A DNA stretch of 64,000 nt, taken from contig CM068825.1 in assembly GCA_028554795.2 (NCBI GenBank), positions 93,048,451 through 93,112,450 of the forward strand, in the 5' to 3' direction. Position numbers and translations under genes: made by a program. Positions 11,885 through 63,324 of this stretch are shown here, piece after piece (positions within the stretch are counted from its first letter, which is position 1; each line of letters opens with the position of its first letter). The notes below the pieces were generated by a model. That model saw nothing but the letters and a program-made list of their open reading frames with translations, did not search any database and was not told where the DNA came from. This stretch comes from Sinohyriopsis cumingii (lineage: Eukaryota > Mollusca > Bivalvia > Unionida > Unionidae).

Positions 11885-11887
<3 letters not shown>

Positions 11888-11969: not shown

Positions 11970-11971
<2 letters not shown>

Positions 11972-33956: not shown

Positions 33957-34111
33957 TTATGATGGAAGAGTTTCCGGGTGAACTTTAGATGTTGATCTTG
34001 GAGATGACAGCTCATTTACACCAATCTTTTTTCTTAGCTTCTTGACCATAAAGGTGCCGACTCCAGCAACCACCGTCACGCCCACCACTCCCCCAGCTAT
34101 ACCAGCTGCCA
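33957..34111 (-). CDS. Terminal exon: single transmembrane helix plus cytoplasmic tail
   Basis: Acceptor TTTATTTTAG|TG, phase 1. Fifty codons follow to TAA at 33957-33959. The residues begin AAGIAGGVVGVTVVAGVGTF and continue MV, an uninterrupted hydrophobic stretch of about 22 residues with small-residue (GxxxG-like) spacing. Then comes a stop-transfer KKLRKK and a tail of about 22 residues rich in Ser, Pro and Thr (ELSSPRSTSKVHPETLPS). This is the pattern of a type I membrane protein with the preceding exons outside the cell. The phase-1 acceptor matches the phase-1 donors of all Ser/Thr exons upstream. A plus-strand ORF at 34042 is a shadow. Confidence 0.75.
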
Positions 34112-34374
34112 CTAAAATAAAGAATGTAGTAAATTCAGAGTTGCTGAGTTTGAAATTGTCAAATATGTTGTACTGTTGGATAAATGTGGCTTTTCAAGAA
34201 AGCTTGCTCTGTAAGAATAAAGAAATATGGTAGTCCTGAATGTAGTCTGGAAGGTGGATGGTGTTATTTGAGTCTATCTGAGTGTGTTTTTGGAATTGAT
34301 CTTGGCAATCTTGATGCTGTACTTATGATACAGGATGAAAATTTTATGGTGGAGACAACAACTGGAACCTAGAT

Positions 34375-34715
34375 ATTGTCGAAGTTAACCGAGATGTTAT
34401 TGTGGTTGAAGCAGAATTTGTAGTTGCTATAGACTGAGATGTCGGCCATGTTGACTGAGTTGTAACCATTTTTATCAGTGTTATTGTTGGTGCTTCAGCT
34501 AGCTGAGGTTTTGATTGTATTGAAGATGTTGCTGATGATGGGTGTTGTCAAAGTTGATTGAGATGTTACTGTGGATGATGAAGTAGCTGCTGTTGACTGA
34601 AATGTTGGCAATATTGACTGAGATGTAGTCATTGTTGTAGATGTTATTCCTGCTGACTATGATGTTGCTTGTGTTGAAGGAGATGATGTAGCATTTATGT
34701 TTCTGCTGTGGTGAT
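34375..34715 (-). pseudogene. Decayed Ser/Thr-rich exon (fossil unit)
   Basis: Read on the minus strand, this shares phrases with the live Ser/Thr exons (ATSSPSTQATS, STTMTTSQS, TVTSQSTLTT). It has an in-frame TAG soon after the start and a frameshift in the middle; the Ser/Thr reading resumes in another frame (MVTTQSTWPTSQS, TTNSAS). It lies between the terminal exon and the first intact Ser/Thr exon, as expected for an old, dying member of the array. Confidence 0.6.
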
Positions 34716-34995
34716 CTTTGAATAATGTAAAGTAACATTTAAATAGAACAATACATTGTAGGTGGCAGCGTGTGTATAGTTGGTTAGGGTGGGGTATTTG
34801 AGAGAGCAAATCTGCAAAATCATAACAAAGAGAGCAAGTGAATCAGCAATATGATGAAAAAATTGGATTTCCTACTAGGCGCCGAGTTTTCCTGGTAACT
34901 TGTTTATAAACATTTTGTTGTGCAATTATTTACACACGTATATCATTGAATCCACTGCAAATATATATTCTTTCACATGCCGGTACTAATTGTTC

Positions 34996-35251
34996 TGAGA
35001 GGCCCCGAGTGGCCGAGTGGTCTAAATTGCTGTCCATTATGGATCGCTGCCATCTCATCTCTGTCTGCGTGGGTTTGAGTCTTGGATACGGCCAATGTGG
35101 GTACGTGAGAAAGCTTGCCAGTAGCTTCTCGTGGGTCGGTAGTTCTTTCTGGGGTTTTCCCGGGTTCTTCCTCCACCATTAATACTAGCCGTCATGTATA
35201 GCCTATCGTGTGCTGAAAAATGGCGTTAAACGCCACAACAGCAACAGCAAC
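34996..35251 (+). mobile_element. tRNA-derived SINE, family B, better-preserved copy
   Basis: The head has GTGGCCGAGTGGTCTAA (A box) and GTGGGTTTGAGTC-like text (B box, GCGTGGGTTTGAGTCTTGG). The body has GAGAAAGCTTGCCAGTAGCT and a pyrimidine-rich stretch GTTTTCCCGGGTTCTTCCTC. The 3' end is ATGTATAGCCTATCGTG, then AAAATGGCGTTAAACGCCAC and an ACAGCA tail. It lies in the last intron of the inferred minus-strand gene. Confidence 0.8.
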
Positions 35252-35664
35252 TAATTGTTCTGCAAATTTCCATATTACTTTTTTGTAATCACACTGAACA
35301 TATTTATTCATGAGTGTAGTACTGGGCCAAAGCAAAAGATTAAAATTAGTGTAAACAAACAGTTGTTTATTATTATGTCTGGAATGAAATAGTAATGTAA
35401 ACTCAAGAAAATCAATACGATGCAATTTCAGTACAAGAAACGTTCAGTTTTATTGTGGCAGAATCAATAGACTCTTTCATTCTTGAAATAAATCAGGAAA
35501 AACTCTAACATTTATGTGAGCTAATCAAATAATATGGAACATGGTGTACATGAAATAATGCATTTGTGATAAACGGAATGCAGAAAAGATATATAGTGGA
35601 ATTTGTGAACAATTGTAATACAGAAAACATAAAGAGAAAAGCAGACTGCAGCAATTACGAATAC

Positions 35665-35993
35665 GTGTTTGTGTGTGTGTGTGATTTGGATTTTTCAGGT
35701 AGTGTTAACAATGTTTCAGTCATATCGCTACGATGTCTGTAGTATAACAGCTTATACTGATGTCTACCACTGGGGCATCATGCGGGAGACATATAGCATG
35801 ATGTCCCACCCAGACACATTATCCTGTCATCAGGTCGGCCAGTCCTAACACTAACTTTTTAATGCTGAGCGTCAAACGAGGCAGCTGTTAGAACCATTTT
35901 TTTAAAGTCTTTGGTATGACTCGACCAGGGATTGAACCCATGACCGTCTGCATCCAAGGCGGATGCTCTAACCATTAGGCCACCGGAGTAGTC
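35665..35993 (-). mobile_element. SINE family A, array copy 1
   Basis: The minus-strand head is CTCCGGTGGCCTAATGGTTA, with a B box GGGTTCAATCCC. The body ends with the CACACACACA-type tail at 35665-35682. It sits about 128 bp past the donor of the Ser/Thr exon 36121-36306, the same place as in every other unit. Confidence 0.85.
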
Positions 35994-36120: not shown

Positions 36121-36306
36121 AAGTTGTAACTGATACTGCAGGAGATGTTGCCACTGTTGTATATGTTACTGTTGTTGCTGATGCTGGCTCAGGTGTTGCT
36201 TGTGCTGAAGGAGATGTTGTTATCAAAACAGTTGTAGTCTGACTTTTTGAGGGCGTCGTCATCTTGGTCGTCGTCGTCGTCTCTGCAGTTGTGCTGCTTG
36301 TGGAAA
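36121..36306 (-). CDS. Ser/Thr-rich mucin-like exon 5 (short form)
   Basis: Acceptor TTTTAG|TTTCCAC, donor TTGTAAGT-type (GTAAGT at 36120-36115), 186 nt, phase 1-1, 62 residues. It begins STSSTTAETT and ends SPAVSVTT. It is about half the length of its paralogues because the middle and C-terminal Ser/Thr repeats are missing, but the length is still a multiple of three. Near the start it has a run of threonine codons where plus-strand GTCGTC repeats make a small trinucleotide tract. Its upstream flank is unusual: only about 170 bp of the flank seen beside 38187-38567 is kept before the sequence jumps to another part of the unit (junction near 36478). Confidence 0.7.
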
Positions 36307-37730
36307 CTAAAAGGGTGATAAATCATTAATAATATTAGGACAGAATTTTTTAGTAAATGTATTAAGATTGAAATTTTCTCTAAATTGTATTAAAGTAATT
36401 TTTCATTAAATTATATTGAAAGCAAATTTCCACTAAAATATATTGAGAGTAATTTTATTATTTCTGTACTACAACTGTATACATTTTATAGGCTTTAAAG
36501 ATTTTGTTTATGAGCTGCAGAGAAATAAAATTGCATAAAACTATAGTATAAGATGGGACTTCTTTAATAGAACTACGTCTCTTGACCTTTAAATTTTAAA
36601 AACGTTACTCGTCTCAGCTTGCGATCAGCCAGGACATGTATTCTATCTATTTATAGGCCATATATTTTAGTGTTTATATCTGAGTGAGATGACATAATCA
36701 CTCTAATCATCCATCTTGTAAACCAAAGTTTAAATGCTAGAACTCAGCTTCTGCCTAAAATATTATGAATACATGTATATAATTGGGGTTGACATCAATG
36801 CCAACAGCCAGCTAAATAAAAAATGCATATAAAATTGCCTCCTCAAGAACAGAAAAAGATCTATAAAATGTCTTTAGAAAAATACATCCTTATAAGGTAT
36901 GATGAAGCATGACACAAAATCTAATGTATGTTAATAGAAAAAACAATTAAAATAACATGACCAATGTATTATAAAGTTTGAGAAAGAATCTAGAGTATGC
37001 AAATGAAAAAGAGCACAAAACTTGTATAATCAATAATGGGAAAAAATGACCTGTTGACTAGATGAAGCCTACCCACTATTGGTGGTATTTGGTTTATTTC
37101 TTATTCTAAAATCCTTTTATATTGAACTTGAAAGTCATACAAATTGATGATACTCGATGGAATTGTATTTTCTGTTAGTTGGCCTATAGAATGAACTTTT
37201 TTGAAAAAACACGGAATCGCAGATAAAGATGAATAGATTTTCTTTTCATGGCCTACACTAGCTGTTGGTGGGTTTGTGATTCTAATTATGTACTTTAATG
37301 GCTGTGAATATATTAAAAGACTAAGTGCATAGGGGCATTGAGTTGGTGGCCCTATTGCTATAACAATATTTTATATGGTAGGCAGGGCTTAGAACTACAA
37401 AATGGATGAAGTACAAACTCTCCATACATTGTGCTATTACTCGTTGGGGACAGTTAAAGGATATACATTATGATTACTTTAGTAAATCAATCTGAATCAG
37501 CTGAATTTGTTGATTTTCATTTCTAGTAACCCATGTATAATATAACTAACTGGCAAACAACAAGTATGCTGGCACACCTGTCTCTCCATTTTCTTCAAAT
37601 ACAGTTGCATTTATCGGCCTGTTGGAGAAAACATATTGAAAAGATATATAATGTACATCAAACATGGAATTTGTGAAGAAATGGAATACAGAAAACATAA
37701 AGAGAAAAACAGACTGCAAAGTTACGAATA

Positions 37731-38055
37731 CGCGTGTGTGAGTGTGTGATTTGGATTTTTCAAGTAGCGTTAACACTTTTTCAGGCATATCGCCACAATG
37801 TCTGCAGTATGACAGTTTATTGTGATGTCTAGCTCTGGGGCATCATGCCGGTGACATGTAGCATGATGTCCCACCCAGTCACATTATCCTGACACCAGGC
37901 CGACCAATCCTAACACTAACCTCTTAGTACTGAGCGCCAAGTGAGGCAGCTGTTAGTACCATTTCTGTAAGTCTTTGGTATTACTCGGCCGGGGATCGAA
38001 CCCATGACCTCCTGTATCCAAGGCGGATGCTCTAACCACTAGGCCTCCGGAGCGG
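37731..38055 (-). mobile_element. SINE family A, array copy 2
   Basis: The minus-strand head is GCTCCGGAGGCCTAGTGGTT, with a B box GGGTTCGATCCC and a tail of CACACTCACACACGCG. Its position relative to the exon at 38187 matches the other units. Confidence 0.88.
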
Positions 38056-38186
38056 TCTATTACGAATACAACAATAAAGAAAAATATATATGACTTAACA
38101 GACGTTGATATTGTGTTTCTTATCTTTAGTCGAGATCTGGAATATGGGAGGATCCGAAGAACATGATGTACAACTGGCTAACTTAC

Positions 38187-38567
38187 AAATTGTAACTGGT
38201 ACTGCATGAGATGTTGATTGAGCTGTAGTCACTGTTGTAGATGTTGCTGCTTGCTGAGATGCTGCTGTTGACACGAGTGTTGCTTGTGTTGAAGCAGATG
38301 TTGATGGCAACTGGGATGTTGTCAAAGTTGACTGAGACGTTACTGTAGCTGAAGGAGAATTTGTAGTTGCTGTTGACTGAGATGTTGGCAATGTTGACTC
38401 AGATGTAACCATTGTTGTAGATGTTACTGTTGTTGTTGATGCTGGCTCAGATGTTGCTTCTGTTGAAGGTGATGTTGTTATCAAAACAGTTGTAGTCTGA
38501 CTTTTTGATGGCGTCGTTGTCATCGTGGTTGACGTTGTCATCTCTGTAGTCGGGCTGCTTGTGGAAA
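38187..38567 (-). CDS. Ser/Thr-rich mucin-like exon 4
   Basis: Acceptor CTCTTTTAG|TTTCCAC, donor ATTT|GTAAGT, 381 nt (127 codons), phase 1-1. It is almost only Thr, Ser, Ala, Pro, Val and Gln, with loose repeats such as TTSPSTEATSEP, STTMVTSEST and SQSTLTTSQLP; no cysteine lies inside the spliced exon. Such PTS-rich tracts carry dense O-glycans in mucins. If the donor is ignored, the frame continues about 30 codons (CKLASCTSC...) to a stop, which marks the intron-retained form. The exon directly follows, in phase, the alternative exon at 39025-39281. Confidence 0.75.
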
Positions 38568-39024
38568 CTAAAAGAGTGATAAATCATTAATACTATTAGG
38601 ACCTAATTTCTGTGTCAATGTATTAAGATTGAAATGTTCTCTAAATTGTATTAAAAGTAATTTTTCATTAAATTATATTGAAAGCAAGTTTCCACAAAGA
38701 CATATTGAGAGTAATTTTATTATTTCTGTACTACAACTGTATACTATTTTAATAAAGATTTCGCTTTTATGAGCAAGTGCAAAACTCTTGTACTATGAAA
38801 TACATTTCTCTTCTATCCAAAAGTCGGCAATTTTTAGACTCTGTTGTAAGATGCTGGACAGGCGAATTCCTTTTGAATGACTAAGATATAAGATTCACGC
38901 ATTTCTTAAAAATGAATAAGCTATGCAGCAGAATTGTCTGTCTGATGACGTACATAGACATTGACATTTTCAGTAAGAAAGACAGGAAAGTCGTTCTGAT
39001 TCAAAATGAATGAACACCAAGTAC

Positions 39025-39281
39025 CTTGACCAATGTCTATATTTGGTCCTGAGGATACGTTCAAAATTGCATATAGATTTAGAACAAGCTTGCGCAAAAT
39101 CAGTTCATTCTTTGAGAAGCAGAAGACTGTGTCTTTCCATCTGTGTTCGTAGACTTCTTTAAAGAATAGGGACTTTGTAATGTTTGAGATGTTCACGGTA
39201 AATGTAATGTTTGAGATGTTCACGGTAAAGTTTAATCTAGACTTGATATTTTTGCAACATTTTTGTGAGCTCTTGCTTATA
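39025..39281 (-). CDS. Sequon-rich exon E2', alternative copy of E2
   Basis: Acceptor ATTCCATTACAG|T, donor GGTCAAG|GTACTT, 257 nt, phase 2 to 1. It encodes ISKSSQKCCKNIKSRLNFTV, then NISNIT twice, KSLFFKEVYEHRWKD, a VFCFSKNE segment, LILRKLVLNLYAILNVSS and GPNIDIGQ. Compared with the copy at 51820-51995 it has 27 extra bases (duplicated NISNITFTV) and 54 extra bases (LILRKL...NVSS). Both differences keep the frame. A phase-2 start cannot follow a Ser/Thr exon (phase 1), so this exon can only be joined to something ending in phase 2, such as the exon at 56499-56639. It is therefore an alternative to E2 or unused. Confidence 0.6.
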
Positions 39282-40764
39282 CTGTAATGGAATGTTTAAT
39301 TATTTTAAAGAATTTATATTCATTCGCATTTATATTTATTAGTGGAAAAGATATAATTCGCTACCAACTTCATGTTTAGATTTAATTTGGAAATAAATAT
39401 TATTTAAGTAATAAAGAGCAATGTTTTAGTAACCTATTTCAAATTAGTATTCTATTTTAAATTTAGTAACATTCCAAAATGCAGAAATTATACAAATGTA
39501 TGAAGCTGGTAAGCTTGAAGGAAAGTTCTAAATTTATATATATTTCATGGATTTTAAATACAAATTTTTATAGATGTATCTTTACAATGTAGTACAGATA
39601 AGTAAATATTGATTAAATTCATTATAGCCAAAATGTATAAAATTCAACAGTTGCTATTAATGCAACAGACGTTTTAAAGAAACGTAATTTACTAAATTCA
39701 AAATAGAATACTAATTTGGAATAGGTTATTAAAACATTAACCGTATTCTCGGCCTCATCAAGTCTGCAATACGCTTTGCTTAATGCACATAATATAGCCC
39801 TCAAACATTTTTGTAAACTGCCGATCTGTATGCCACTATATCAAATAGTTCTGAGTTTGGTTCCTTCATCTGCCATGACATATTCTTCAACGTCTCTTTT
39901 TGCTATTTCGTTCATTTTGCTAATAATATATGTTTTGAATAGTATGATATCTCACCACTTAACCTGATGCAATTGTTTCAGGCAAGCGGATCAGATTTGC
40001 TATGAGACCTAAATGCTTGTTTAGCAGCCTTGTTCTGATTGCTCATACAAATGCTATTTTAAGAAGCCAGATTTAGTCCATATAAAGATTGCATACATTG
40101 GGTGTTCAATATAAAAGACAACTACAAGTTGTTAAATACAAATCACCTAATAATCGCCTTAAAGATTTACATAATTTACAAGTTAGAATGGTAAATGTAA
40201 ATTTCAGCGCCATGCTTGTTTACCTAAACCCTATACAATCTATTCCTCAAGAGACACAAATATAAGTTCCCATACAGCATCACAACCACACACTCTCCAT
40301 GATATAGTTTTTATCTTCATTACATCAGTTGAGAGATATGTTTATCATGCATGAGCTGTATTCTATTTTTATGATTACCTTCAATATGTCATTAACAGAG
40401 TAATTTGGGTGAAAAAATGACATACTGTCTGAAGTCGCTGTGGAGGAGATGTCAAAAATTACTTATGCCATTGTCAATATCCGAGTACACTAAATCATAC
40501 CCGATTAGCAATGGTAGCTTGCTGGACAAAATTATTTAAATTACTGATTGCCATTTCCCTCTACTTCAGATCACATTCATTATTGTAATTTATCCGATCA
40601 TTTTTAACAGCATTTTCATCATGCGTATTATGTTGCCTGTGATTTGTTTGCTTTCTTAATTCGTTTCATCCACCACCTTTTGGCTTTCCACTTTCATCCA
40701 TATCTTCAAATGCTACTTTTACTTTTTTTCTATCTGTTTTGACATTAAATGCCTGTTGCTTGTG

Positions 40765-41085
40765 TACCAATTGTATTATAACGAGTCTTTCAGCCGTTTT
40801 GACGTGTTTCCTGTTGACTGTTTCCTAATATGTTATAACCAATCTTTCAGCCGTTTTTTGTGTCATTCCTGACGATTATTTACCAATTATAACCAATCTT
40901 TCAGCTGTTTTTGTGTGCTTCTCGTTGATTATTTACCGATTTAGTTATAAAAAATTTTTGGGTAGTTTTTATTTGTTTCCTGTTGACTGTTTTCCAATTT
41001 TGCTATAGCCAATCTTTTAGTTGTTCTTTGTGTGCTACCTGTTGATGGTTCACCAATTTTGTTATAATATTTCGGGCAGGTTTAC
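40765..41085 (+). repeat. About 60-bp tandem repeat (AACCAATCTTTCAGC), copy 1
   Basis: About six diverged copies of TATAACCAATCTTTCAGC, then a TTTTTGTGTG(T/C)TTCCTGTTGA-like stretch and TTTACCAATT. The same minisatellite occurs at about 44510-44765, 47690-47920 and 53455-53755 as part of the segmental units. Confidence 0.8.
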
Positions 41086-42235
41086 ACTTTTCTCCAAACA
41101 CTTGCTTTAACCAATTCGCTTTCTAACAGTATTATATTTGAATAGTATTGGAATATTCAATGTTGGTTTCATATTACTTGGAAATAACCATCGCTTTACA
41201 TGTCCTTTTTATGTTTATTTTTCTACCTGTTAAATTGTCAATGGTAGCGGACATTTTATTTGACTGTGAAATAAAGTTTGGATCAACTCTGTTAGTAAAC
41301 ATTTCTGATAAACTATTGTATGACATCACAATTTTCTATGATTCAGTTTCATCCGGTCTTTTTACATAGTAAAGCTGTAACATGTAAGCAAAATGTCAAA
41401 CAAGATGTTCTGAAACTCTCCCTACATCACTGACAAACTGCATTTCACCCTCATCTCCACTTATTCCTTCATATAAATATTTTTACTAGAAATTTATCTT
41501 CCATTCACGTCTTCAGATACACTAAACTTTGATACTATTTCTGTGAACCTATGATCCATTAGATTTTTACCAAGAGGTTCTAGTTATTAGCCCACAAACG
41601 TATTACTATATAGAAATTTGACTGTTCCTTTAAAACAACCTGTTGAGAGCATTCATTTTAACCTTGTATCTATATCATCATCCCTATTATCATCATCATC
41701 ATCAGCTGCAGCAGCAATATTTAGTACTTTCTAGACATCTCTATCTGTCTCTTTCCCTCTCCATTATTCTAAATATCCTTATAGGTTTTATCTACTGGCC
41801 TACAGACTTAGACTAATATATCAGAAAAAGTTAATCCATACTAAAGAGTTATTTATGTCCGGGCATACTTCAACTTGCGACATGTTTGGAGATAAACGAT
41901 ATGATTCATTGTTTCCGGAAATAAGGTGGTGGAATAAATCTATCTATTTTCTGATTTTGTTTTCAGCAAAGTATTTGCACATGCTTGTCTTAAGAGTATG
42001 ATGAAATGCTTCTACTCGAAATGCTTATCTATTCGAATGAGGAGAAAAAGTATTCTTCAATAATTCAATAATCATATCCATCTAAATTAATTTCCTTTAT
42101 CGACTTGTAACAGTATTTTTCTTGGGTTTTGTCCGTATCTTTTCAAATATTATTGCAGTCATGATTTATATCAGTCATCTTCTTTTAGCTTTTACTTTTT
42201 TAGCTCAGGATTATTGTCAAATGAAATCTATTTGT

Positions 42236-42237
<2 letters not shown>

Positions 42238-42304
<67 letters not shown>
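42238..42304. repeat. (TA)n microsatellite
   Basis: About 33 TA units at the flank/core boundary of the segmental unit. Related runs at 49093-49136 and 63261-63322 are of different length. The corresponding place near 45420 has almost no run, so the tract is highly variable among units. The YIYIYI ORF across it has no meaning. Confidence 0.97.
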
Positions 42305-42305
<1 letters not shown>

Positions 42306-43663
42306 CCAACCAGTATAATTTTTATATGTTTGTAAAAGAAGTGTATCTGCTTTGTAAAGATCATGTGTATGACTCACAAATTATTCGGTATAGAAATATG
42401 TTTTGGATTGTTTATATATTGTATCAACATTTTATAGGCTTTAAAGATTATTTGTTTTGAGATGCAGAAAAATAAAATTGCATAAAACTTTAGTATAAGA
42501 CGGAACTTCTTTCCTAGAACTGCGTCTCTTCAGATATTAATTTTAAGACAATTACTCATCTCAGCTTGCGATCAGCCAGGACATGTATTCTATCTATTTA
42601 TAGGTCATACATTTTAGTGTTCATATCTGAGTGAGATGACATAATCACTCTAATCAGCCAACTTGTAAACTAAAGTTTAAATGCTAGAACTCAGGTTCTG
42701 CCTAAAATATTATCAATATATAATTGGGGGTTGACGTCAATACCTAAAGCCAGCTACATAAAAGTGCAGGTCCAATTGGCTCCTCAGGAACAAAAAAAGA
42801 TCTATAAAATGTCTTTAAAAAAAAAACATGCTGATAAGGTCTGATGAAGCATGACACAAAATCTATTGTATGCTAATAGAAAAACAATTAAAATAACATG
42901 ACCAATGTATTATAAAATATGATAAAGAAACTAGAGTATGCAAATGAAAAGGAGCACACAACTTGTATAGTCAATAATAGGAAAAAAAATGATCTTCTCA
43001 CTAGATGCAGCCTGTGGGTGGTAATTGATTTATGTCTTATTCAAAAATCCTTTCATAGTGAACTTGAAAATGATACAAATTGATGATACTCGATGGAATT
43101 TATTTTCTGTTAGTTGGCCTATAGAATGAACTATTTTGAAGAAAAAAATTGAATCGCCGAGACTGAATACATTTTTGTCATGGCCTGCACTAGCTGTTGG
43201 TGGGTTTGTGATTCTAATTATGTACTTTAATGGCTGTGAATATATTAAAAGACTAAGTGCATAGGGGCATTGAGTTGGTGGCCCTATTGCTATAACAATA
43301 TTTTATATGGTAGGCAGGGCTTAGAACTACAAAATGGATGAAGTACAAAGTCTCCATACATCGTGCTATTCCTCGTTGGGGACAGTTAAAGGTTATACAT
43401 TATGATTACTTTAGTAAATCAATCTGAATCAGCTGAATTTATCGATTTTCGTATCTAGTAACCTATCTATAATCTAACTAACTGGCGAACATAAAGTATG
43501 GTGGCACACCTGTCTCTCCATTTTTTTCAAATACAGTTGCACTTATCTGCATGTTGGAGGTAACAAATTGAAAAGATATACAATGTACACGAAATATGGA
43601 ATTTGTGAAGAAAGGGAATACAGAAAACAAAAAGAGAAAAGCAGACTGCAACAATTATGAGTA

Positions 43664-43989
43664 CGTGTATGTGAGTGTGTGATTTGAATTTTTCAAGTAG
43701 CGTTAACAATTTTTCAGTCATATCGCTATGATGTCTGCAGTATGACAGTTTATAGTAACGTCTAGCACTGGGGCATCATGCCGGAGACATGTAACATAAT
43801 GTCCCACCCAGTCACATTATCCTGACACCAGGCCGACCAGTCCTAACATTAACCTCTTAATGCTGAGCTCCAAGTGAGGCAGCTGTTAGTACCATTTTTG
43901 TAAGTCTTTGGTATGACTTGGCCGGGGATCGAGCCCATGACCTCCTGCATCCAAGGCGGACGCTCTAAATATTAGGCCACTCGAGTAGT
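43664..43989 (-). mobile_element. SINE family A, array copy 3
   Basis: Same orientation and place in the unit. The head has lost the A box (ACTCGAGTGGCCTAATATTTAG), a change shared with the copy at 46836-47160, which confirms that these two units are sisters. Confidence 0.85.
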
Positions 43990-44119
43990 CTATTACAAAT
44001 GCAACAGTAAAGAAAAATATACATGACTTAACATACATTGATAATGTGTTTCTTATCTTTAGTCGAGAATTGGATTATGGGAGGATCCGAAAAACATGGT
44101 GTACAACTGGCTGACTTAC

Positions 44120-44494
44120 AAATTGTAACTGGTATTGCAGGAGATGTTGATTGAGCTGTAGCCACTACTGTAGATGTTGCTGCTTGCTGAGATGCTGTTG
44201 ACACGAGTGTTGCTTGTGTTGAAGCAGATGTTGATGGCAACTGGGATGTTGTCAAAGTTGACTGAGACATTACTGTAGTTGAAGGAGAATTTGTAGTTGC
44301 TGTTGACTCAGATGTCGGCAATGTTGACGGAGATGTTGCCATTGTTGTATGAGATAATGTTGTTGCTAATGCTGGCTCAGATGTTGCTTGTGTTGAAGGA
44401 GATGTGATCAAAACAGTTGTAGTCTGACTTTTTGATGACGTCGTTGTCATCTTGGTCGACGTTGTGGACTCTGTAGTCGTACTGCTTGTGGCAA
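44120..44494 (-). CDS. Ser/Thr-rich mucin-like exon 3
   Basis: Acceptor ACTATTTTAG|TTGCCAC, donor ATTT|GTAAGT, 375 nt (125 codons), phase 1-1. It starts ATSSTTTESTTS and ends SPAIPVTI. Ser/Thr/Ala/Pro composition matches the other copies; small in-frame losses (one serine codon in SPSTQ, one alanine in STASQQ) account for the shorter length. Immediately upstream, after ATAGTGATAA, the sequence joins the AACCAATCTTTCAGC minisatellite instead of the E2-containing flank, so this unit carries no E2 exon. The ATG-initiated ORF reaching 44567 is intron read-through. Confidence 0.72.
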
Positions 44495-47160: not shown

Positions 47161-47290
47161 CTATTACAAATACAACAGTAAAGAAAAGTATATACGACTT
47201 AACAGACGTTGATTATGTGTTTCTTATCTTTAGTCGAGAATTGGATTATGGGAGGATCCGAAAAACATGGTGTACAACTGGCTGACTTAC

Positions 47291-47668
47291 AAATTGTAAC
47301 TGGTACTGCAGGAGATGTTGATTGAGCTGTAGCCACTACTGTAGATGTTGCTGCTTGTTGAGATGCTGCTGTTGACACGAGTGTTGCTTGTGTTGAAGCA
47401 GACGTTGATGGCAACTGGGATGTTGTCAAAGTTGACTGAGACATTACTGTAGTTGAAGGAGAATTTGTAGTTGCTGTTGACTGAGTTGTTGGCAATGTTG
47501 ACGGAGATGTAACCATTGTTGTATGAGATAATGTTGTTGCTGATGCTGGCTCAGATGTCGCTTGTGTTGAAGGAAATGTGATCAAAACAGTTGTAGTCTG
47601 ACTTTTTGATGGCGTCGTTGTCATCTTGGTCGACGTTGTGGACTCTGTAGTCGTACTGCTTGTGGCAA
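47291..47668 (-). CDS. Ser/Thr-rich mucin-like exon 2
   Basis: Acceptor ACTATTTTAG|TTGCCAC, donor ATTT|GTAAGT, 378 nt (126 codons), phase 1-1. Start ATSSTTTESTTS, end SPAVPVTI. Very close to the exon at 44120-44494. The frame past the donor again runs through CKSASCTPC to a stop about 30 codons on. The flank upstream is the minisatellite remnant, so there is no E2 exon beside it. Confidence 0.72.

Positions 47669-49087: not shown

Positions 49088-49092
<5 letters not shown>

Positions 49093-49136
<44 letters not shown>
49093..49136. repeat. (TA)n microsatellite
   Basis: About 22 TA units, at the same place in the unit as 42238-42304. Confidence 0.97.
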
Positions 49137-49137
<1 letters not shown>

Positions 49138-50529
49138 CCAACCAGCATAATTTGTATATGTTAGTAAAAGAATTATATCTGTTTTGTAAAGATTATGTGC
49201 ATCACAAAATTTTCTGTACAGAAACCTATTTTGGATTGTTCATATATTGCACGAGTGGACTGTTCCAATCTTTAGGTTCAGAACATTTTATAGGCTTTAA
49301 AGATTTTATTTATGAGCTGCAGAGAAATAAAATTGCATAAAACTATAGTATAAGATGGGACTTCTTTAGTAGAACTACGTCTCTTGACATTTAAATTTTA
49401 AAAAAGTTACTCGTCTCAGCTTGCAAACAGCCAGGACATGTATTCTATCTATTTATAGGCCATACATTTTAGTGTTCATATCTGAGTGAGATGACATAAT
49501 CACTCTAATCATCCATCTTGTAAACCAAAGTTTAAATGCCAGAACTCAGGTTCTGCCTAAAATATTGTGAATACATGTATATAATTGGGGTTGACATCAA
49601 TGCCAACAGCCAGCTAAATAAAAAATGCATATAAAATTGCCTCCTCAAGAACAGAAAAAGATCTATAAAATGTCTTTAGAAAAATACATCCTTATAAGGT
49701 ATGATGAAGCATGACACAAAATCTAATGTATGCTAATAGAAAAACAATTAAAATAACATGACCAATGTATTATAAAGTTTGAGAAAGAATCTAGAGTTTG
49801 CAAATGAAAAAGAGCACAAAACTTGTATAATCAATAATAGGAAAAAATGACCTGTTGACTAGATGAAGCCTACCCACTGTTGGTGGTATTTGGTTTATTT
49901 CTTATTCTAAAATCCTTTTATATTGAACTTGAAAGTCATACAAATTGATGATACTCGATGGAATTTATTTTCTGTTAGTTGGCCTATAGAATGAACTTTT
50001 TTGAAAAAACACGGAATCGCAGATAAAGATGAATAGATTTTTTTCATGGCCTGCACTAGCTGTTGGTGGGTTTGTGATTCTAATTATGTACTTTAATTGC
50101 TGTGAATATATTAAAAGACTAAGTGCATAGGGGCATTGAGTTGGTGGCCCTATTGCTATAACAATATTTTATATGGTAGGCAGGGCTTAGAACTACAAAA
50201 TGGATGAAGTACAAACTCTCCATACATTGTGCTATTACTCGTTGGGACAGTTAAAGGTTACACATTATGATTACTTTAGTAGATCAATCTAAATCAGCTG
50301 AATTTGTTGATTTTCATTTCTAGTAACCCATGTATAATATAACTAACTGGCAAACAACAAGTATGCTGGCACACCTGTCTCTCCATTTTCTTCAAATACA
50401 GTTGCATTTATCGGCCTGTTGGAGAAAACATATTGAAAAGATAATATAATGTACATCAAACATGGAATTTGTGAAGAAATGGAATACAGAAAACATAAAG
50501 AGAAAAACAGACTGCAAAGTTACGAATAC

Positions 50530-50855
50530 GCGTGTGTGAGTGTGTGATTTGGATTTTTCAAGTAGCGTTAACACTTTTTCAGGCATATCGCCACAATGTC
50601 TGCAGTATGACAGTTTATTGTGATGTCTAGCTCTGGGGCATCATGCCGGTGACATGTAGCATGATGTCCCACCCAGTCACATTATCCTGACACCAGGCCG
50701 ACCAGTCCTAACACTAACCTCTTAGTACTGAGCACCAAGTGAGGCAGCTGTTAGTACCATTTTTGTAAGTCTTTGGTATGACTCGGCCGGGGATCGAACC
50801 CATGACCTCCTGTATCCAAGGCGGATGTTCTAACCACTAGGCCTCCGGAGCGGTC
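50530..50855 (-). mobile_element. SINE family A, array copy 5
   Basis: Near twin of the copy at 37731-38055: same head GCTCCGGAGGCCTAGTGGTT and same CGCG-ended tail. Confidence 0.88.
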
Positions 50856-50984
50856 TATTACGAATACAACAATAAAGAAAAATATATATGACTTAACAGA
50901 CGTTGATGATGTGTTTCTTATCTTTAGTCGAGATCTGGAATATGGGAGGATCCGAAGAACATGATGTACAACTGGCTGACTTAC

Positions 50985-51362
50985 AAATTTTAACTGGTAC
51001 TGCAGGAGATGTTGATTGAGCTGTAGCCATTGTTGTAGATGTTGCTGCTTGCTGAGATGCTGCTGTTGACACAAGTGTTGTTTGTGTTGAAGCAGATGTT
51101 GATGGCAACTGGGATGTTGTCAAAGTTGACTGAGACGTTACTGTAGTTGAAGGAGACGTAGTTGCTGTTGACTGAGTTGTTGGCAATGTTGACTCAGATG
51201 TAACCATTGTTGTAGATGTTACTGTTGTTGTTGATGCTGGCTCAGATGTTGCTTCTGTTGAAGGTGATGTTGTTATCAAAATAGTTGTAGTCTGACTTTC
51301 TGATGGCGTCGTTGTCATCGTGGTTGACGTTGTCATCTCTGTAGTCGGGCTGCTTGTGGAAA
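50985..51362 (-). CDS. Ser/Thr-rich mucin-like exon 1
   Basis: Acceptor CTCTTTTAG|TTTCCAC, donor ATTT|GTAAGT, 378 nt (126 codons), phase 1-1. Start STSSPTTEMTTS, then SESQTTTILITT; end SPAVPVKI. It is nearly identical to the exon at 38187-38567, with an in-frame three-base loss (TTNSPS versus TTSPS). It directly follows exon E2 (51820-51995): E2 ends with a single G, this exon starts TT, giving GTT (Val). Confidence 0.75.
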
Positions 51363-54133
51363 CTAAAAGAGTGATAAATCATTAATACTATTAGGACATA
51401 ATTTCTGTGTCAATATATTAAGATTGAAATTTTCTCTAAATTGTATTAAAAGTAATTTTTCATTAAATTATATTGAAAGCAAGTTTCCACAAAGACATAT
51501 TGAGAATAATTTTTTTATTTCTCTACTACAACTGTATACTATTTTAATAAAGATTGCGCTTTTATGAGCAAGTGCAAAACTCTTGTACTATGAAATACAT
51601 ATCTCTTGTATCCAAAAGTCGGCAATTTTTAGACTCTGTTGTACGATGCTGGACAGGCGAGTTCCTTTTGGATGACTAGGATATAAGATTCACGCATTTC
51701 TTAAAAATGAATAAGCTATGCAGCAGAAGTGTCTGTCTGATGACGTACACAGACGCGGACATTTTCAGTAAGAAAGACAGGAAAGTCGTTCTGATTCAAA
51801 ATGAATGAATACCAAGTACCTTGACCAATGTCTATATTTGGTCCTTCATTCATTGAGAAGCAGAAGACTTTGTCTTTCCATCTGTGTTCGTAGACTTCTT
51901 TAAAGAATAGGGACTTTGTAATGTTTGAGATGTTCACGGTAAAGTTTAATCTAGACTTGATATTTTTGCAACATTTTTGTGAGCTCTCGCTTATACTGTA
52001 ATGGAATGTCTAATTATTTAAAAGAATTTATATTCATTCGCATTTATATTTATTAGTGGAAAAGATGAATTCGCTACCAACTTCAGGTTTAGATTTACTT
52101 TGGAAATAAATATTATTTAAGTAATAAAGAGCAATGTTTTAGTAACCTATTCCAAATTAGTATTCTATTTTAAATTTAATAACATTCCAAAATGCAGAAA
52201 TTATACAAATGTATGAAGCTGATAAGCTTGAAGGAAAGTTCTAAATTTATATATATTTCTTGGATTTTAAATACAAATTTTTACAGATGTATCTTTACAA
52301 TGTAGTACAGATAAGTAAATATTGATTAAATTCATTATAGCCAAAATGTATAAACTTCAACAGTTGGTATTAATGCAACAGACGTTTTAAAGAAACGTAA
52401 TTTACTAAATTTAAAATAGAATACTAATTTGGAATAGGTTATTAAAACATTAACCGTATTCTCAGCCTCATCAGGTCTGCAATACGCTTTGCTTAATGCA
52501 CATAATATAGCCCTCAGACATTTTTGTAAACTGCCGATCTGTATGCCACTATATCAAATAGTTTGAGTTTGGTTCCTTCATCTGCCATGACATATTCTTC
52601 AACGTCTCTTTTTGCTATTTCGATCATTTTGCTAATAATATATGTTTTGAATATTATGATATCTCACCTCTTAACCTGATGCAATATAGTTTCAGGCAAG
52701 CGAATAAGATTTGCTATGAGACCTAAATGCCTGTTTTAGCAGCCTTGTTCTGATTGCTCATAAAAAAATGCTATTTTAAGAAGCCAGATTTAGTCCATAT
52801 AAAAATTGTATACATTGGGTGTACAATATAAAATACAACTACAAGCTGGATACAAATCACCTAATAATCGCCTTAATGATTTACATCATTTACAAGTTAG
52901 AATGGTAAATGCAAATTTCAGTACCAGGTTTGTTTACCTAAACCCTACACAAGCTATACCTCAACAGGCAAAACAAGAAGTTTCCATACAGCATCACAAC
53001 CACACACCCTCCATGATGTAGTTTTTATCATCTAAATGTCAGTTGAGGAACCTGTTTATCATGCATGGGCTGTATTCCATTTTTATGATTACCTACAATA
53101 TGTCATTAACAGAGTTATTTGGGTGAAAAAATGACATACTGTCTGAAGTCGCTGTGGAGGAGATGTCAAAAATTACTTATGCCATTGTCAATATCGGAGT
53201 TTACTAAATCATACCCGATTAGCAATGGTAGGTTGCTGGAAAAAATTATTTAAATTACTGATTGCCATTTCCCTCTACTTCAGATCACATTCATTATTGT
53301 AATTTATCCGATCTTTTTAAACAGCATTTTCATCATGTGTATTATCTATTGTCTGTGTTTTGTTTGCTTTCTTACTTATTTCATCCACCACCTTTAGGCT
53401 TTCCACTTTTTCTATCTGTCTTGATTTTCAATGCCTGCTGCCTGTTTACCGATGTTATTATAAAGAGTCTTTCAGCCGTTTTGACGTGTTTTATGTTGAC
53501 TGTTTCCTGTTATAACCAATCTTTCAGCCGCTTTGTGTGTGCTTCCTGACGATTATTTACCAATTATAACCAATCTTTCAGCTGTTTTTGTGTGCTTCTA
53601 GTTGATTATTTGCCGTTTTAGTTATAAACAGTTTTTCAGTAGTTTTTGTTTGTTTCCTGTTGACTGTTTACCAATTTTGCTATAGCCAATCTTTCAGCTG
53701 TTCTTTGTGTGCTACCTGTTGACGGTTCACCAATTTTGTTATAATCTTTCTGCTGTGTTTGTACTTTTCTCTTAACCAACTCGTTTTCTAATAGTATTAT
53801 TTTTGAATATTGTTGGAATATTCAATGTTGGTTTCATATTACTTGGAAATAGCCATTGCTTTACATGTCCTTTTTATGTTTATTTATTTTTCTACCTGTT
53901 AAATCGTCAGTGGTAGCGGACATTTTATTTGACTTTGAAATAAATTTTGGATCCACTCTGTTAGTAAACATTTCTGATACACTCCTTTATGGCATTACAA
54001 TTTTCTATCATTCAGTTTCAGTCTGTCTTTTTACATAGTAAAGGTGTAACAAGTAAGTAAAATGTCAAACAAGCTGTTCTGTAACTCTCCTAACACCATT
54101 GGCAAACTGCATTTCACTTGTCAATCTCATCTT
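51363..54133. repeat. Long-unit block, copy 2
   Basis: Counterpart of 38568-41400. Similarity stops abruptly after CAATCTCATCTT at 54133. In other units this is followed by CACTTATTCCTTCATA; here single-copy sequence with the upstream exons begins. Confidence 0.85.
51820..51995 (-). CDS. Sequon-rich exon E2, with paired cysteines
   Basis: Acceptor ATTCCATTACAG|T, donor GGTCAAG|GTACTT, 176 nt, phase 2 to 1. It encodes ISESSQKCCKNIKSRLNFTV, NISNITKSLFF, KEVYEHRWKDKVFCFSMNE and GPNIDIGQ. There are three N-glycosylation sequons (NFT, NIS, NIT) and three cysteines (CC and CFS). Its phase-2 start fits the phase-2 end of the exon at 56499-56639 (AG plus T gives Ser). It probably finishes the Cys-containing domain begun upstream and links it to the mucin-like stalk. 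The in-frame indels relative to 39025-39281 are good evidence that this sequence is, or recently was, coding. Confidence 0.65.
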
Positions 54134-54571: not shown

Positions 54572-56498
54572 CTATATAACATATCCAAACTTGCATTGTC
54601 ATAACTTCAGCATGTTTAAACCATTTATCATGAAATTGTTTTACTAATAGATGAACACTACTTAACACTGGATAAATGTCATGATAAAATTCTTTCATTT
54701 TATATGGTAGGTTATTTTAATAAGTAAGGTGTGGTTATGTCTGCATAGGCTGTAGGTCAATTATCAAGGGACCTCGCCATGTTTAACTCTATACAAGTGA
54801 TCCAAAATGGTCCGAATTCTCTTCCGGTGACATCGTTCCAGAACATATGATTTGTAATAATGGTAGGGGTGTTTCTCTAAATTGCTCAGACTGCTTTAAT
54901 ATGCCTGTACCCATTCACATTTTGCATGTGTATTTGTATTGGCATATTATATAGCGAAAAATATGTTCATTTATACATGACAAATATGCAAATACTAATT
55001 AATAATATGTTTCTGTGTGAATTTTCATTTTATTAAGAGTGCGGAGTACTACATCCTATGATGCTGAATCATATTTCACAAGCTAGATAAATAACAGACC
55101 TTGTCACTTTACATGATTACGTTACCATAAGTTATGTACAGACAATTTATCTTTAATAAAACAGTTTCCTGAAAATGCAGCAGACCAACTAACTTTCACT
55201 GTAGCACATTCGCACACACACACACACACACACACATGCCGATCGAGCCAACTCCAATAGAGCCTGTCATCCCGAAATAACCAAAGTACCATTTATACAT
55301 CACAGATTCTGCAACTTCTATAAAATATTTGCAAACCTCCTTTGTCGGAAAAGTTACAAATTAAGGGACTATTTCTCTCAAACTAACGATGCTAAGGTGC
55401 TCAAATACAAAATCTAATAAATCAATTAAACTCAATAGATAACGTTTATATACTATCTTGGCCTGGAGTTTCCCTTAAACATGCTGACTTTTTTAAAACT
55501 GTAGTATATATTTGACGCTTCTTATATATGATTTGTTTAACTTTGAACAATCATTCTTTGGGCACAAACGGTTAAAATATCTGTTATTAAGTACACTTAT
55601 TTTGAAGAATAAACTCATGATCCAGAAGATGATGAAGGTTAGTAAATAGCAAATGCATAACAATATGCACTCTAAAAAAAATGGTTTCCGATATAGGAGT
55701 ATATTTGATAAAGTGTGTTAGAAACCACACTAAAGGGAAGGCGTAATAGTTTTTCTTTAGTGTCCATAAAACACTCAGGATTGCTTGCAATTTGGTCTCT
55801 GAAAATGCGTGTCTTCCGCATTGAAAATGTATCTGGTCTATATTTATATTATAATGTAAACAGTAACAACATATATATTACCATATATTTTCTCCACCAC
55901 TCGTACATCTGTACATCGTGTATTATCACTATTTCTGAAATCGACAAAATTTATGATAATATGGAACATTTCACTGTGTTGAAATATACATCTCCTTGAC
56001 AAGACAAAAGACTATATATGAATATTTTAAAAATGGATGTTCTCTTAAGAAAGACTGATTCATATACACCCTAAAAAACGAGTTGAACAATTCAGTGATA
56101 TACACTTATAATGCTTTTAGGAGTTTGCCGCATTTATAGAATTTCTGAGAAGTGTAGGGTCGCATGTATGTACAAAATAAATCTAAAATTAGTTTCCCAC
56201 GAGTCTGACTTACAAACCCAGAATGCTGATGGCTTATGTGCATAACAAGTTATAAACAACGCTCATATTGGTCTATTGTTCAGAAGCAATTTGTAAAGAT
56301 TCTTCCCATTCTTTGGGTACGTTATCATTCAATATTTCACAGCAAAAGACTCATCATATCTAAAAATGAAGAAAAAAATGAAATGGTTATGGGTATGTTC
56401 AACTTTATTACTATTTCAGTATGAGACTTGTTGCGACCAAATATAACGTTGTGAAAAATATTACTCTAAAATAAAAATAAGATGGTTAGTATTCATAC
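54572..56498. other. Intron DNA, single-copy
   Basis: A (CA)n run lies at 55212-55236. A minus-strand open stretch near 55225-55340 contains a hydrophobic WYFGYFGMTGSIGVGSIGM segment, but no splice sites give it a usable phase. Nothing else is supported. Confidence 0.5.
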
Positions 56499-56639
56499 CT
56501 GGTCCTCAAACATATTGTATTCATACCCATCTGGTTGTTAGAAGGGATGAAGGCAGTATCAATAACACATTTGCCTTCTGTCATGACCGGAGAAAAGACA
56601 AAGATATTTTCAACAACACTAGTCTGAATAAGCTCCGGG
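56499..56639 (-). CDS. Extracellular-domain exon B, Cys pair
   Basis: Acceptor TTGTATTTCAG|C, donor ACCAG|GTATGA, 141 nt, phase 2-2. It encodes PELIQTSVVENIFVFSPVMT, then EGKCVIDTAFIPSNNQ and MGMNTICLRT. The alternation of hydrophobic residues (VVENIFVFSPV, CVIDTAFI, NTICLRT) and the C...C pair about 19 residues apart look like a beta-sandwich domain. The first base completes a codon with TG from exon A to give Cys (GQC-PEL), adding another cysteine. I have an impression of similar domains in mollusc extracellular proteins but cannot name the family. Good splice sites, no stop, and phase agreement on both sides support a real exon. Confidence 0.75.
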
Positions 56640-57789
56640 CTGAAATACAACAGGTTTTAAAAATTATAACTATTAAAAAATGTAGATGGTTATGTGATCA
56701 CTAAAGCGAATAATGAATTTGCACCAAAGTTGTCTCAAATCGCTATAGAGCTATTTGTCCCAAAGGAAAAAATATGCAGAGCACAACAAAAAAGAAAAAA
56801 AACATAATGATAAAAGAGAATAATAACGCCAGTGTATTGCACCAAACCAATATAGGAGGCGACAAAGCACAATCACGGAGCATCAGTGTATAGATAACCT
56901 TGCCTTTTGCAAAGCAACATGTTTTAAAATTAATTGCACTAAACATTTTTTAATTCATTGTTAGATCAATTTCTGCTTTTCAAGAATGAATCTTACTTAG
57001 TGTTTAGAGAAGTTTCTCTGAAAGAAAATCGAAGAGCGCATCTAATATTAATTGTTGAAGTCAGTGCAAATTGCTCTCAAGTGTCTCTAAAGGATAATCG
57101 TGCTACGTCGCAATTGCTGAATAAAATATTATTTCTTATATAGAAACGTGTTAAACAAAGCAAGATACACAGAACCAGCAAAAACTAATACATTGTAAAT
57201 AGATTTAGATGTTAATTAATTTGTCTTTCCAATAATTTTATTTTTCTTAAATTATTATAACTCTAATGCTCTTATGAGCGAAATTTATATCAGAACAAGC
57301 CATTGAAAATAAAAATGTTATTTTCGACCTTCATTACTTATATATGTTCACCCTTTCTATTATTTGAATTCTTCCATCCTCCTGTTTCATTCAGTTACGT
57401 GGTATTGCTAGAGTGTTACCATTTCTACATCATTTCTTAAAATTGATTTAGAATACTGACTAGACCTTTCATATCCAATCAGTAAATTAAATGAACATTT
57501 TTGTGAAGAAAAGAAAACTCGGTACCGAGTCAATATGTCACGAATGGACTTAAATGGTTGTTATCCAGAAAAATCCAGGAAGGAAAGGTGCATTCAGCGA
57601 TATAACTTTCACAGGATTTCAAGATCAGCAGAAATAAACCATCTTGAAATTCTTGAATACCATTAACTTTATAATTTAGTCAAGTTTTTTAAAAATTATT
57701 TCATTTCGTTCGTCATATTCGAGTTCTTTGATTTCAAGCTATTCACTGTGGCAGCTTTGAAAAGCGGTCACAGCAGTTTCTCTTCTCAC

Positions 57790-57893
57790 CATTGTCCATT
57801 TTTCGGAACCAGATAGGAGAGGATGTGGCAAGTTGTATTAATCTGGCACTTTACAGTTGAGTTGGCATTCAATGTCGGTGTCTGGAAAGGTGG
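57790..57893 (-). CDS. Extracellular-domain exon A, sequons and cysteines
   Basis: Acceptor ATTATTATAG|CCA, donor GGACAATG|GTGAGA, 104 nt, phase 0 to 2. It encodes PPFQTPTLNANSTVKCQINT, then TCHILSYLVPKNGQ and two bases of the next codon. It has two N-glycosylation sequons (NST, NTT) and two cysteines (KCQINTTC). A proline-rich start followed by a C-x5-C segment and a GQC end reads as the first half of the domain completed by exon B. The polypyrimidine tract of its acceptor is formed by a trinucleotide microsatellite (57896-57933). Confidence 0.68.
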
Positions 57894-57895
57894 CT

Positions 57896-57933
57896 ATAAT
57901 AATAATAATAATAATAATAATAATCATAATAAT
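57896..57933. repeat. (TAA)n trinucleotide microsatellite at a splice acceptor
   Basis: About a dozen TAA units on the plus strand, with one CAT interruption, read as (TTA)n on the minus strand directly before the AG of exon A. The T-rich repeat takes the place of a normal polypyrimidine tract. Confidence 0.9.
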
Positions 57934-59444
57934 GGAAATATTTTAAAGGAACAAAATTATATCAGTTCTGGGATCAAGTCATGGTTGGAAAAATCAATGC
58001 ATATTTTATTACATTTTTTACCTACAATGTAAGGCAGCATTTGTTGCAGAAATTAATGAAAGGAGTGATATCATTTCAATAGCTCTCTGCACAGCATGTC
58101 TGATAAACAAGAAACTCCCTTTTTATCAAGCTCATCTTTTATTTAAATGGAAAAGAAAATAAATATAACATTTAGCTAAATCTTACAAACTTTAACAATA
58201 ACCATAACTTAGGATGTTTAAGGACGTATATATAAACGAACACTAACACCGACGCTAAAAGTGATCACTATGTCAAGCTTCCAATATGGCCACACAATAT
58301 TTCCGATGCTAAGCTGCATTTAATTGAGAACTGAACAATAGGCAGAGTGACTCTTTATACCTTCTCGTAAATTCCCATAATATATTTTGAACAAACAGTT
58401 TGTTAATAAAATTTGATAGGTAAAACAATTATTTCCAGATGAAAGAATATATATACTATGAATATGATGTCAGATTATCATCTTCTGGAGGAAAAAGGAT
58501 CATTAACTTCACAAAGTTAGCAAAGGCCCCATACATGCATACTGTCACATTTATCGATAGCATTCATAGTGTTCCACGTATTTCATTTTATTTCTAAATA
58601 AAAATTGGGGAATGTTTCAGTATTTATTTTCTGAACATTAGAATTGGGGGGAAAATCAGGTGAAACATACAGACACAACCATTAAAATTTGGAACAAAAG
58701 ATAATATTCTGTCATAATGAATAAAATGCACATTTTGCTAATGTTGTTCATGCTTTTAAACGTGTTTAATTAAGGTAAAAACGTTGCAAAATAGACAGGA
58801 AACATCAGACGGTTGATTTTTTTTAGCTTGACCTTGTGTCTGTTCTGTGTTTACAATATATAATTGTTCTAATCTCACATCTGCAGAATCTTGTTAGGAA
58901 TTGGTGTTTAAGAAAATAAGTACATGGAAAAATGAGATGGAGGTGATAAATGGGTGTAAATAAATAAAACAGAATCGTTTTATTTAAAAAGAAACAGTAA
59001 TTTATCTGTGAAATCCAGCAACAACCGAAAATGTCGAACTCTAAGAATTCAGAGGAAATGGAGAAATGGAACTGACTAATATTAAAAAATATAAATGCAT
59101 TCGAATATCCTTCTTTGCAGTTTACCACTGAATATTACATTCTAGTTTATATCGACTACGTAGACATTTGTGAATAATTGCATACTTTGTTGATTAACTT
59201 ACTACAGGTTATATGTTTGTATGCTAACTTATTGTTCAGATTATCTAATAACTGCAAAATTTAAGGTATATGTTACTGCTACTACAGTGAAAATCAACAA
59301 GATTTTGTTCCATAGCAACTGTATTTAATGTGAAAATCGGTTTAAGTGCATTTGTTATGATTTGAACCACATAATATCATTATTTTTCTGCGCTGGATCT
59401 TTTTATAAAATAAAAACTTGACTAATGTTTGCTCATTTACTTAC
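57934..59444. other. Intron DNA
   Basis: AT-rich. A 101-codon minus-strand ORF at 58823-59128 is hydrophobic and low in complexity, and no splice donor fits it. No other features are seen. Confidence 0.5.
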
Positions 59445-59464
59445 CTGAGTAGGTCTGCCAGATA
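59445..59464 (-). CDS. 20-nt microexon
   Basis: TATCTGGCAGACCTACTCAG lies between a strong acceptor (CTTTTTCATTTAG) and a strong donor (CAG|GTAAGTAAATG). To meet the phase-0 start of exon A it must be read TA|TCT|GGC|AGA|CCT|ACT|CAG, giving SGRPTQ, and it must follow a phase-1 donor. That is the phase of every Ser/Thr exon in the array, so a further Ser/Thr exon could precede it. A Gly/Pro/Thr/Gln linker before a PPFQTP start is sensible. The exon is very short, so chance remains possible. Confidence 0.5.

Positions 59465-63266: not shown

Positions 63267-63324
<58 letters not shown>

Follow-up and report, generated by a model that had tools for sequence, protein, structure and literature searches.

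A Sinohyriopsis cumingii membrane-protein gene with a mucin-like stalk probably built by duplication of genomic units

The window analysed here is a 64,000-nucleotide stretch of the Sinohyriopsis cumingii genome (assembly GCA_028554795.2, contig CM068825.1, positions 93,048,451 to 93,112,450). It very probably contains the 3′ end of a large gene for a single-pass membrane protein, whose mucin-like stalk has been lengthened by copying of genomic units. The best reading of the sequence is a membrane-anchored, mucin-like stalk under an ectodomain of EGF and six-cysteine domains. The window does not reach the 5′ end; the gene extends at least 25 kb upstream of it and perhaps reaches 46–73 kb upstream.

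Ten exons were located between 59464 and 33957 on the minus strand, on which all the window features described below also lie. All ten have AG acceptors and all but the last have GT donors. The phases are 1→0, 0→2, 2→2 and 2→1 for exons e1 to e4 and 1→1 for each of five mucin cassettes, and the terminal exon is entered in phase 1. In the genomic sequence the joined frame is open to a stop in the terminal exon, and the ten exons are predicted to be joined in the mRNA. An earlier note on this DNA had proposed these exons with their splice sites and closing phases, all of which were reproduced, but its total of 2294 nt (764 codons) was in error: the recount gave 2171 nt, or 723 codons including the stop.

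The first exon, e1 (59445..59464), is a 20-nt linker placed by its GT/AG sites and phase. It is the weakest of the ten, as a simple pattern search found no counterpart in the paralogous genes described below. The last six-cysteine domain is encoded by e2 (57790..57893, 104 nt), e3 (56499..56639, 141 nt) and e4 (55882..55934, 53 nt), each of which has the same length and phase in both paralogs; e4 was found through this conservation. Two candidates were dropped: the e3 donor ATGG/GTATGA and, for e4, a TGA-terminated exon at 56359. The donor at 56499 and the 55934 exon were preferred because both are also present in the paralogs.

The EGF profile PF00008 was matched above its cut-off by five of six peptides, which come from paralog C9 and from DNA upstream of the window; none was inside the window. 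No Pfam cut-off was reached by the six-cysteine domain, and PF24937 (12.1 of 27 bits) and PF07495 (16.6 of 26.6 bits) were both rejected as its home. Its comparison with the PDB by sequence gave no convincing match (best E 0.51). The 13 peptides given to Pfam, which represent part of the ectodomain, contained no match to a SEA domain.

After the ectodomain come the cassettes: c1 (50985..51362, 378 nt), c2 (47291..47668, 378 nt), c3 (44120..44494, 375 nt), c4 (38187..38567, 381 nt) and c5 (36121..36306, 186 nt), the last of these shortened in frame. There are thus four near-full copies of 124–126 residues and one of 61, so that the length of about 125 residues given in the earlier note holds for the first four but not for the fifth. 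Each cassette is 54–58% Ser/Thr and 6–8% Pro and has no Cys. Together they form a stalk of about 566 residues, of which at least 315 are Ser or Thr and none is Cys; with this composition it may be O-glycosylated and extended. The motif GTAAGT occurs on the minus strand of 34000–56000 only five times, and these are the five cassette donors.

A scan of both strands of 174 kb around the window for open stretches rich in Ser, Thr and Pro (at least 27 of 50 residues) found seven, all on the minus strand at about 34.5–51.4 kb. Five of them are the cassettes, and the other two belong to a decayed cassette. These pieces, which contain stops, lie in the last intron, between c5 and the membrane exon (approximately 34372..34689), and were absent from the earlier note. 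All six matches to the cassettes are confined to the window locus, at both the DNA and the protein level.

The terminal exon (33957..34111, 155 nt) is assigned from its phase, hydropathy and paralogs. As had been proposed, it is entered in phase 1 and contains a hydrophobic helix (maximum hydropathy 2.04 in a 19-residue span) and a stop. The stop is 51 codons into the exon, which encodes nothing beyond the helix and its short basic tail, and the protein has no intracellular tyrosine phosphatase domain. The exon is 41–42% identical to the membrane exons of the paralogs. By sequence search alone this match is weak (E 1.7 and 1.9), and the homology therefore leans on position. Like syndecan (PF01034), the protein has a helix with a basic juxtamembrane stretch, but the profile match of 14.6 bits is below the curated cut-off of 25.2 and it is not a member of that family.

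The assembly contains two paralogous genes, C9 and C181. In both, the exons for the last ectodomain measure 104, 141 and 53 nt, identical in length and phase to those of the window gene, and are followed by an EGF exon, Ser/Thr-rich 1–1 exons and a related membrane exon. The EGF exon before the mucin exons is missing from the window gene. The C9 chain, which includes three 279-nt 1–1 mucin exons, runs through 508 codons to a stop. The window gene model finds its strongest support in the exon lengths, the phases and the related membrane exon of the paralogs. As five mucin exons were found in the window gene, three in C9 and one in C181, the three genes differ in stalk length. The window and C9 cassette units have no alignable DNA in common, so the two arrays look separate, and C9 appears to have amplified a different exon in the same way. 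A second copy of the last domain in C9 (local 6.2–7.3 kb) has no mucin or membrane exon in view after it, which is an observation counter to generality.

The earlier note had also suggested that the stalk lengthens by duplication of units of 3–6 kb. Duplication of multi-kilobase units is borne out by shared flanks and by a SINE present in all five units. The size range needed widening: acceptor-to-acceptor spacings from the exon coordinates are 3.69, 3.17, 5.93 and 2.26 kb, three of which lie within the proposed limits and one outside, giving a range of 2.3–5.9 kb. The flanking DNA common to the full copies is about 2–5 kb, and that of the short c5 about 0.9 kb. The SINE lies 139–141 bp after the cassette donor. 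It is tRNA-derived and was mapped at 50532..50855 in the c1 unit, with aligned parts of its counterparts at 46836–47123, 43665–43952, 37734–38057 and 35665–35993. It is probably of a mollusc type; Nin-SINEs are described from limpets. A search with the hemocyanin family PF14830 gave no match here or in 14 controls and is uninformative.

The array order is c1 c2 c3 c4, with c1 resembling c4 and c2 resembling c3. The c1 block (49283..54117) is duplicated at 36481–41448, the c4 block; parts of the two differ by only 0.7–4% and another part by 8–11%. For the other pairs of units the divergence after the donor is 5–13%. To judge from the c1/c4 pattern, gene conversion or a patchy duplication of the block has probably contributed in addition to tandem duplication. 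A partial copy of the unit intron lies at 62770..64000 and continues to 64581, beyond the window. A further cassette was searched for on this account, and none was found with it.

In the exons of c1 to c4 the gaps are of 3 nt at all three gap positions, and 16 of the 20 gaps in the c1/c2 intron alignment are not multiples of three. A neutral simulation, which assumes an open ancestor and hand-set branch lengths, retained four open copies in 0.50–0.56% of runs. From exon divergences that cover c1 to c4, cassette dN/dS is 0.55–1.84 over six pairs, near 1. For the ectodomain it is 0.39–0.48 in comparisons with the window copy and 0.74–0.97 among the C9 and C181 copies. The contrast between ectodomain and stalk is therefore partial, the ectodomain being clearly lower only in comparisons with the window copy.

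We propose the following explanation. The ectodomain, mostly outside the window, would consist of EGF exons and the three-exon six-cysteine domain. The long, Cys-free, Ser/Thr-rich stalk would hold it off the membrane, followed by a single helix and the short basic tail. One ancestral 1–1 exon, with its flanking intron and with the SINE already adjacent, may have been copied as multi-kilobase units, every full copy adding about 125 residues to the stalk. The frame would be undisturbed, since it tolerates the gain, skipping or loss of 1–1 exons in any number. Selection would maintain the frame and the Ser/Thr richness more than the sequence, and we infer that stalk length is its target. It is an unlikely extension of this that paralogous surface receptors set their reach by exon number, each having separately amplified its own mucin exon, with symmetric exons allowing splicing to shorten the stalk. 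If so, the receptors in this genome are graded in stalk length and may sense, through a glycocalyx, targets that are nearer or farther away.

The cassettes might instead be spliced alternatively or mutually exclusively, giving isoforms that differ in stalk length or sequence and not one long stalk, as with CD45 exons 4–6. All five cassettes are 1–1, so any subset keeps the frame, and three mucin-like exons of this kind are in use in CD45 (PMC11969063). However, the copies are near-identical in composition, so that swapping one for another would change little, and we regard this reading as possible but rather unlikely. That some or all of the cassettes are decaying, functionless by-products of local duplication would fit a dN/dS near 1, the adjoining decayed copy and the loss of half the length of c5. 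This is quite improbable given that the frame is retained beyond neutral expectation, that five donors and five acceptors are all intact and that C9 has a separate in-frame array.

Similarly little weight is given to a different 3′ end, in which the protein is secreted and the exon at 34111 belongs elsewhere. Its end would then come from read-through beyond a cassette or from a short exon near 56359. In four of the five units the frame stays open past the donor and meets a shared stop after 30 codons, and the AG-led stretch at 56359 would close the domain with a stop. Against it stand the strength and conservation of the cassette donors, the related membrane exon downstream of the mucin exons in C9 and C181, and the replacement of the 56359 candidate by the conserved e4 (55934). 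The c1 and c4 blocks are in parts so alike (0.7–4%, as above) that haplotype copies joined in one contig could be imagined to inflate the array. Such an artefact is very unlikely, as the order of the cassettes is unlike that of two joined haplotypes, the other pairs differ by 5–13% and the c1/c4 blocks themselves include the 8–11% part.

Amplification of mucin repeats as exon plus intron is already known from the SmPoMuc mucins of Schistosoma mansoni (PMC2576457), and the window gene would show a variant of this mode. In SmPoMuc the exon is of 27 bp in a unit of about 1 kb, and as many as 20 units occur, with microsatellites between them. Both systems have tandem units of exon and flanking intron that encode mucin repeats, vary in number between paralogs and have introns homogenised between units. 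Here, in contrast, the units are 2.3–5.9 kb, the exons 186–381 nt (5, 3 and 1 found), and there is an EGF/six-cysteine ectodomain and a membrane exon. The gene therefore works like SmPoMuc but is not a member, the size of the unit and exon and the microsatellites being different. In CD45 (PTPRC), exons 4–6 are likewise separate mucin-like exons giving a variable segment under a folded ectodomain in a single-pass protein. The length there is varied by alternative splicing and a phosphatase lies inside (PMC11969063), whereas the present genes vary in how many duplicated exons they have and the window protein has a short tail. The CD45R0 segment of 41 residues measures 6.6 nm (PMC11969063), and a full cassette would span about 20 nm if extended to the same degree. 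MUC7 also changes its number of Ser/Thr-rich repeats with Ser/Thr content kept (PMC4997351), but its 69-bp repeats vary within one exon and whole exons with introns are copied here.

Unlike the in-exon repeats of MUC7 and the 27-bp exons of SmPoMuc, cassettes of about 125 residues would be added by multi-kilobase duplications. By analogy with CD45-type stalks, the phases would permit skipping of mucin exons. As a paralog has a second, separate array, how exon number relates to stalk length and to function is testable within one genome. Intermediate stages lie side by side in the window: besides the full copies there are an in-frame shortened copy and a decayed copy, together with a conversion-like gradient.

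The window (C2:93048451-93112450, within the 2.9-Gb assembly) had been described in an earlier note as holding ten minus-strand exons with GT/AG sites and closing phases. This was confirmed: AG precedes all ten exons and GT follows all except the last. The chain starts with a linker exon, e1 (59464-59445, phase 1-0), and the three exons of the last six-Cys domain, e2 (57893-57790, 0-2), e3 (56639-56499, 2-2) and e4 (55934-55882, 2-1). Five Ser/Thr-rich mucin cassettes, all of phase 1-1, follow: c1 (51362-50985), c2 (47668-47291), c3 (44494-44120), c4 (38567-38187) and c5 (36306-36121). The terminal exon (34111-33957), which encodes the membrane helix, is entered in phase 1 and runs to a stop. 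The claimed total of 2294 nt and 764 codons could not be reproduced; the sum obtained was 2171 nt, giving 723 codons including the stop when counted after the first two bases. The best reading is that the gene would encode a membrane-anchored mucin-like stalk beneath an EGF/six-Cys ectodomain.

A genome-wide search with the six-Cys domain gave two close copies on contig C9 and one on contig C181. The paralogous genes, at 36259-50207 and 8722-13158 respectively of the extracted stretches, have counterparts of e2-e4 of 104, 141 and 53 nt with the same phases as in the window. In both, an EGF exon of 111 nt comes next, for which no counterpart was seen in the window gene, and after it S/T-rich 1-1 exons: C9 has three, each 279 nt long, and C181 at least one, of 435 nt, and perhaps more. 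The C9 chain runs to a stop over 508 codons, its last acceptor being chosen among three neighbouring AGs. The paralogs support the model of the window gene. The second C9 copy of the domain (local 6.2-7.3 kb) has no visible mucin or membrane exon downstream, so this 3′ end is not common to every copy. Several further weak six-Cys matches (E 0.17-6.3) lie at about 106.69-106.93 Mb on C9, suggesting a cluster of related genes.

Membrane exons were located downstream of the mucin exons on C9 (local 49992-50204) and downstream on C181 (local 21156-21362, provisional limits). These two are 75% identical, and that of the window is 41-42% identical to both. The C9 membrane exon as a genome query gave 32 matches: the C9 and C181 exons, 29 weak matches elsewhere (E 0.5-9.1) and, at E 1.7, the window exon. 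As the window exon stands among such weak matches, its homology rests on position together with sequence.

Beyond the upstream edge of the window, the same strand carries nine conserved pieces that align with C9 (88.9-69.6 kb). A local search found domain matches at 81633, 80978, 95089 and 110591 (E 1e-4 to 0.015), only two of which recur among the genome-wide matches listed, with E values of 1.5 and 2.0. Eight EGF-pattern matches lie at 79.5-136.6 kb in a scan of the minus strand alone, hence with no control strand; Pfam PF00008 was passed by five of six EGF-like peptides (five from upstream, one from C9). From strand and order, we infer that the farthest matches belong to the window gene. 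Neither its 5′ end nor a signal peptide was found.

Several observations speak against chance as the source of the open cassettes. A scan of both strands over 174 kb around the window for stretches with at least 27 S/T/P in 50 residues returned seven, all on the minus strand: five correspond to the cassettes and two to remnants of a decayed further copy, which lies between c5 and the membrane exon. GTAAGT occurs five times on the minus strand of 34000-56000, each time as the donor of a cassette. When the c1-c4 exons are aligned, gaps occur at three positions and are all 3 nt long, while 16 of 20 gaps between the alignable c1 and c2 introns have lengths not divisible by three. A neutral simulation with c1/c2 intron-pair rates, run 5000 times for each of two roots, left all four copies without stops or frameshifts in 0.50-0.56% of runs, and without stops in 12-13% when frameshifts were ignored; it assumes an open ancestor and branch lengths set by us to fit the exon divergences.

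Full units, each a cassette with its flanking intron, have 2-5 kb of DNA in common; for the c5 unit this falls to about 0.9 kb. All five units carry a SINE at 139-141 bp past the donor, so it was present before amplification. The exons of c1 and c4 diverge by 2.9%, those of c2 and c3 by 3.2%, and the remaining four c1-c4 pairs by 7.9-10%; over the 520 bp past the donor the corresponding values are 1.5%, 5.4% and 9.3-10.2%, with c5 at 12.6-13.2% from the other units. In the duplicated c1/c4 block, divergence is 8.3-11.3% over the first 1.2 kb and 0.7-5.3% beyond it, a pattern that suggests gene conversion along a tract, or else a block duplication that was patchy. About 2.1-2.2 kb of DNA ahead of c1 and c4 is absent from units c2 and c3. 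The units contain a 58-bp minisatellite (53508-53744, 47680-47864 and 40752-41067), which in c2 and c3 directly adjoins the acceptor and may there mark a recombination point.

Among the best candidates scored in genome-wide cassette searches, the window locus alone was matched (6/6 for DNA, 6/6 for protein, E ≤0.01). When window 34-64 kb is aligned with the C9 stretch as DNA, e2-e4 and the SINE are covered and the cassettes are not, and the C9 units are 93-94% identical to one another over long matches. Thus the arrays arose, or were homogenised, separately.

Past the donors of c1-c4, the cassette frame stays open over 30 codons, several of them for Cys, until a common stop (93 bases downward from 50985, 47291, 44120 and 38187, minus strand); in c5 it stops early. 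This may represent a read-through tail, or it may reflect chance combined with common descent.

Cassette dN/dS is 0.55-1.84 in the window (six pairs) and 0.85-1.03 on C9 (three pairs), and S/T content is 54-58%: frame and S/T richness are kept and the residues drift. For e2-e3, dN/dS is 0.39-0.48 between the window and three copies, and 0.74-0.97 among those copies. The stalk is about 566 residues long. By our own extrapolation from the 6.6 nm given for the 41-residue mucin-like segment of CD45R0 in PMC11969063, it would reach about 90 nm, each full cassette adding about 20 nm, and that of C9 about 45 nm.

In the titles and abstract openings of the matches listed from open-access literature on mucin repeats, exon duplication, stalk length, symmetric exons and bivalve or mollusc receptors, this gene family is not described. 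In SmPoMuc genes, a 27-bp exon sits in a unit of about 1 kb that is repeated in tandem, an architecture that the same paper ascribes to spider silk genes also (PMC2576457). In MUC7, repeat changes occur inside one exon (PMC4997351).

Elsewhere in the window, a 33-bp minisatellite (6333-8360, 61.5 copies, 93% matches) reads without stops as 11-residue repeats on either strand, with stop-to-stop lengths of 562 and 506 aa. A 313-aa stop-to-stop stretch in which Pro, Ser and His are abundant (3887-4828, plus strand) is possibly an exon of another gene. A tRNA-Gln(CTG) call (2804-2876, plus strand) coincides with the head of a further copy of the cassette-unit SINE (2803-3080), and is therefore probably due to the tRNA-derived part of that SINE rather than to a tRNA gene.
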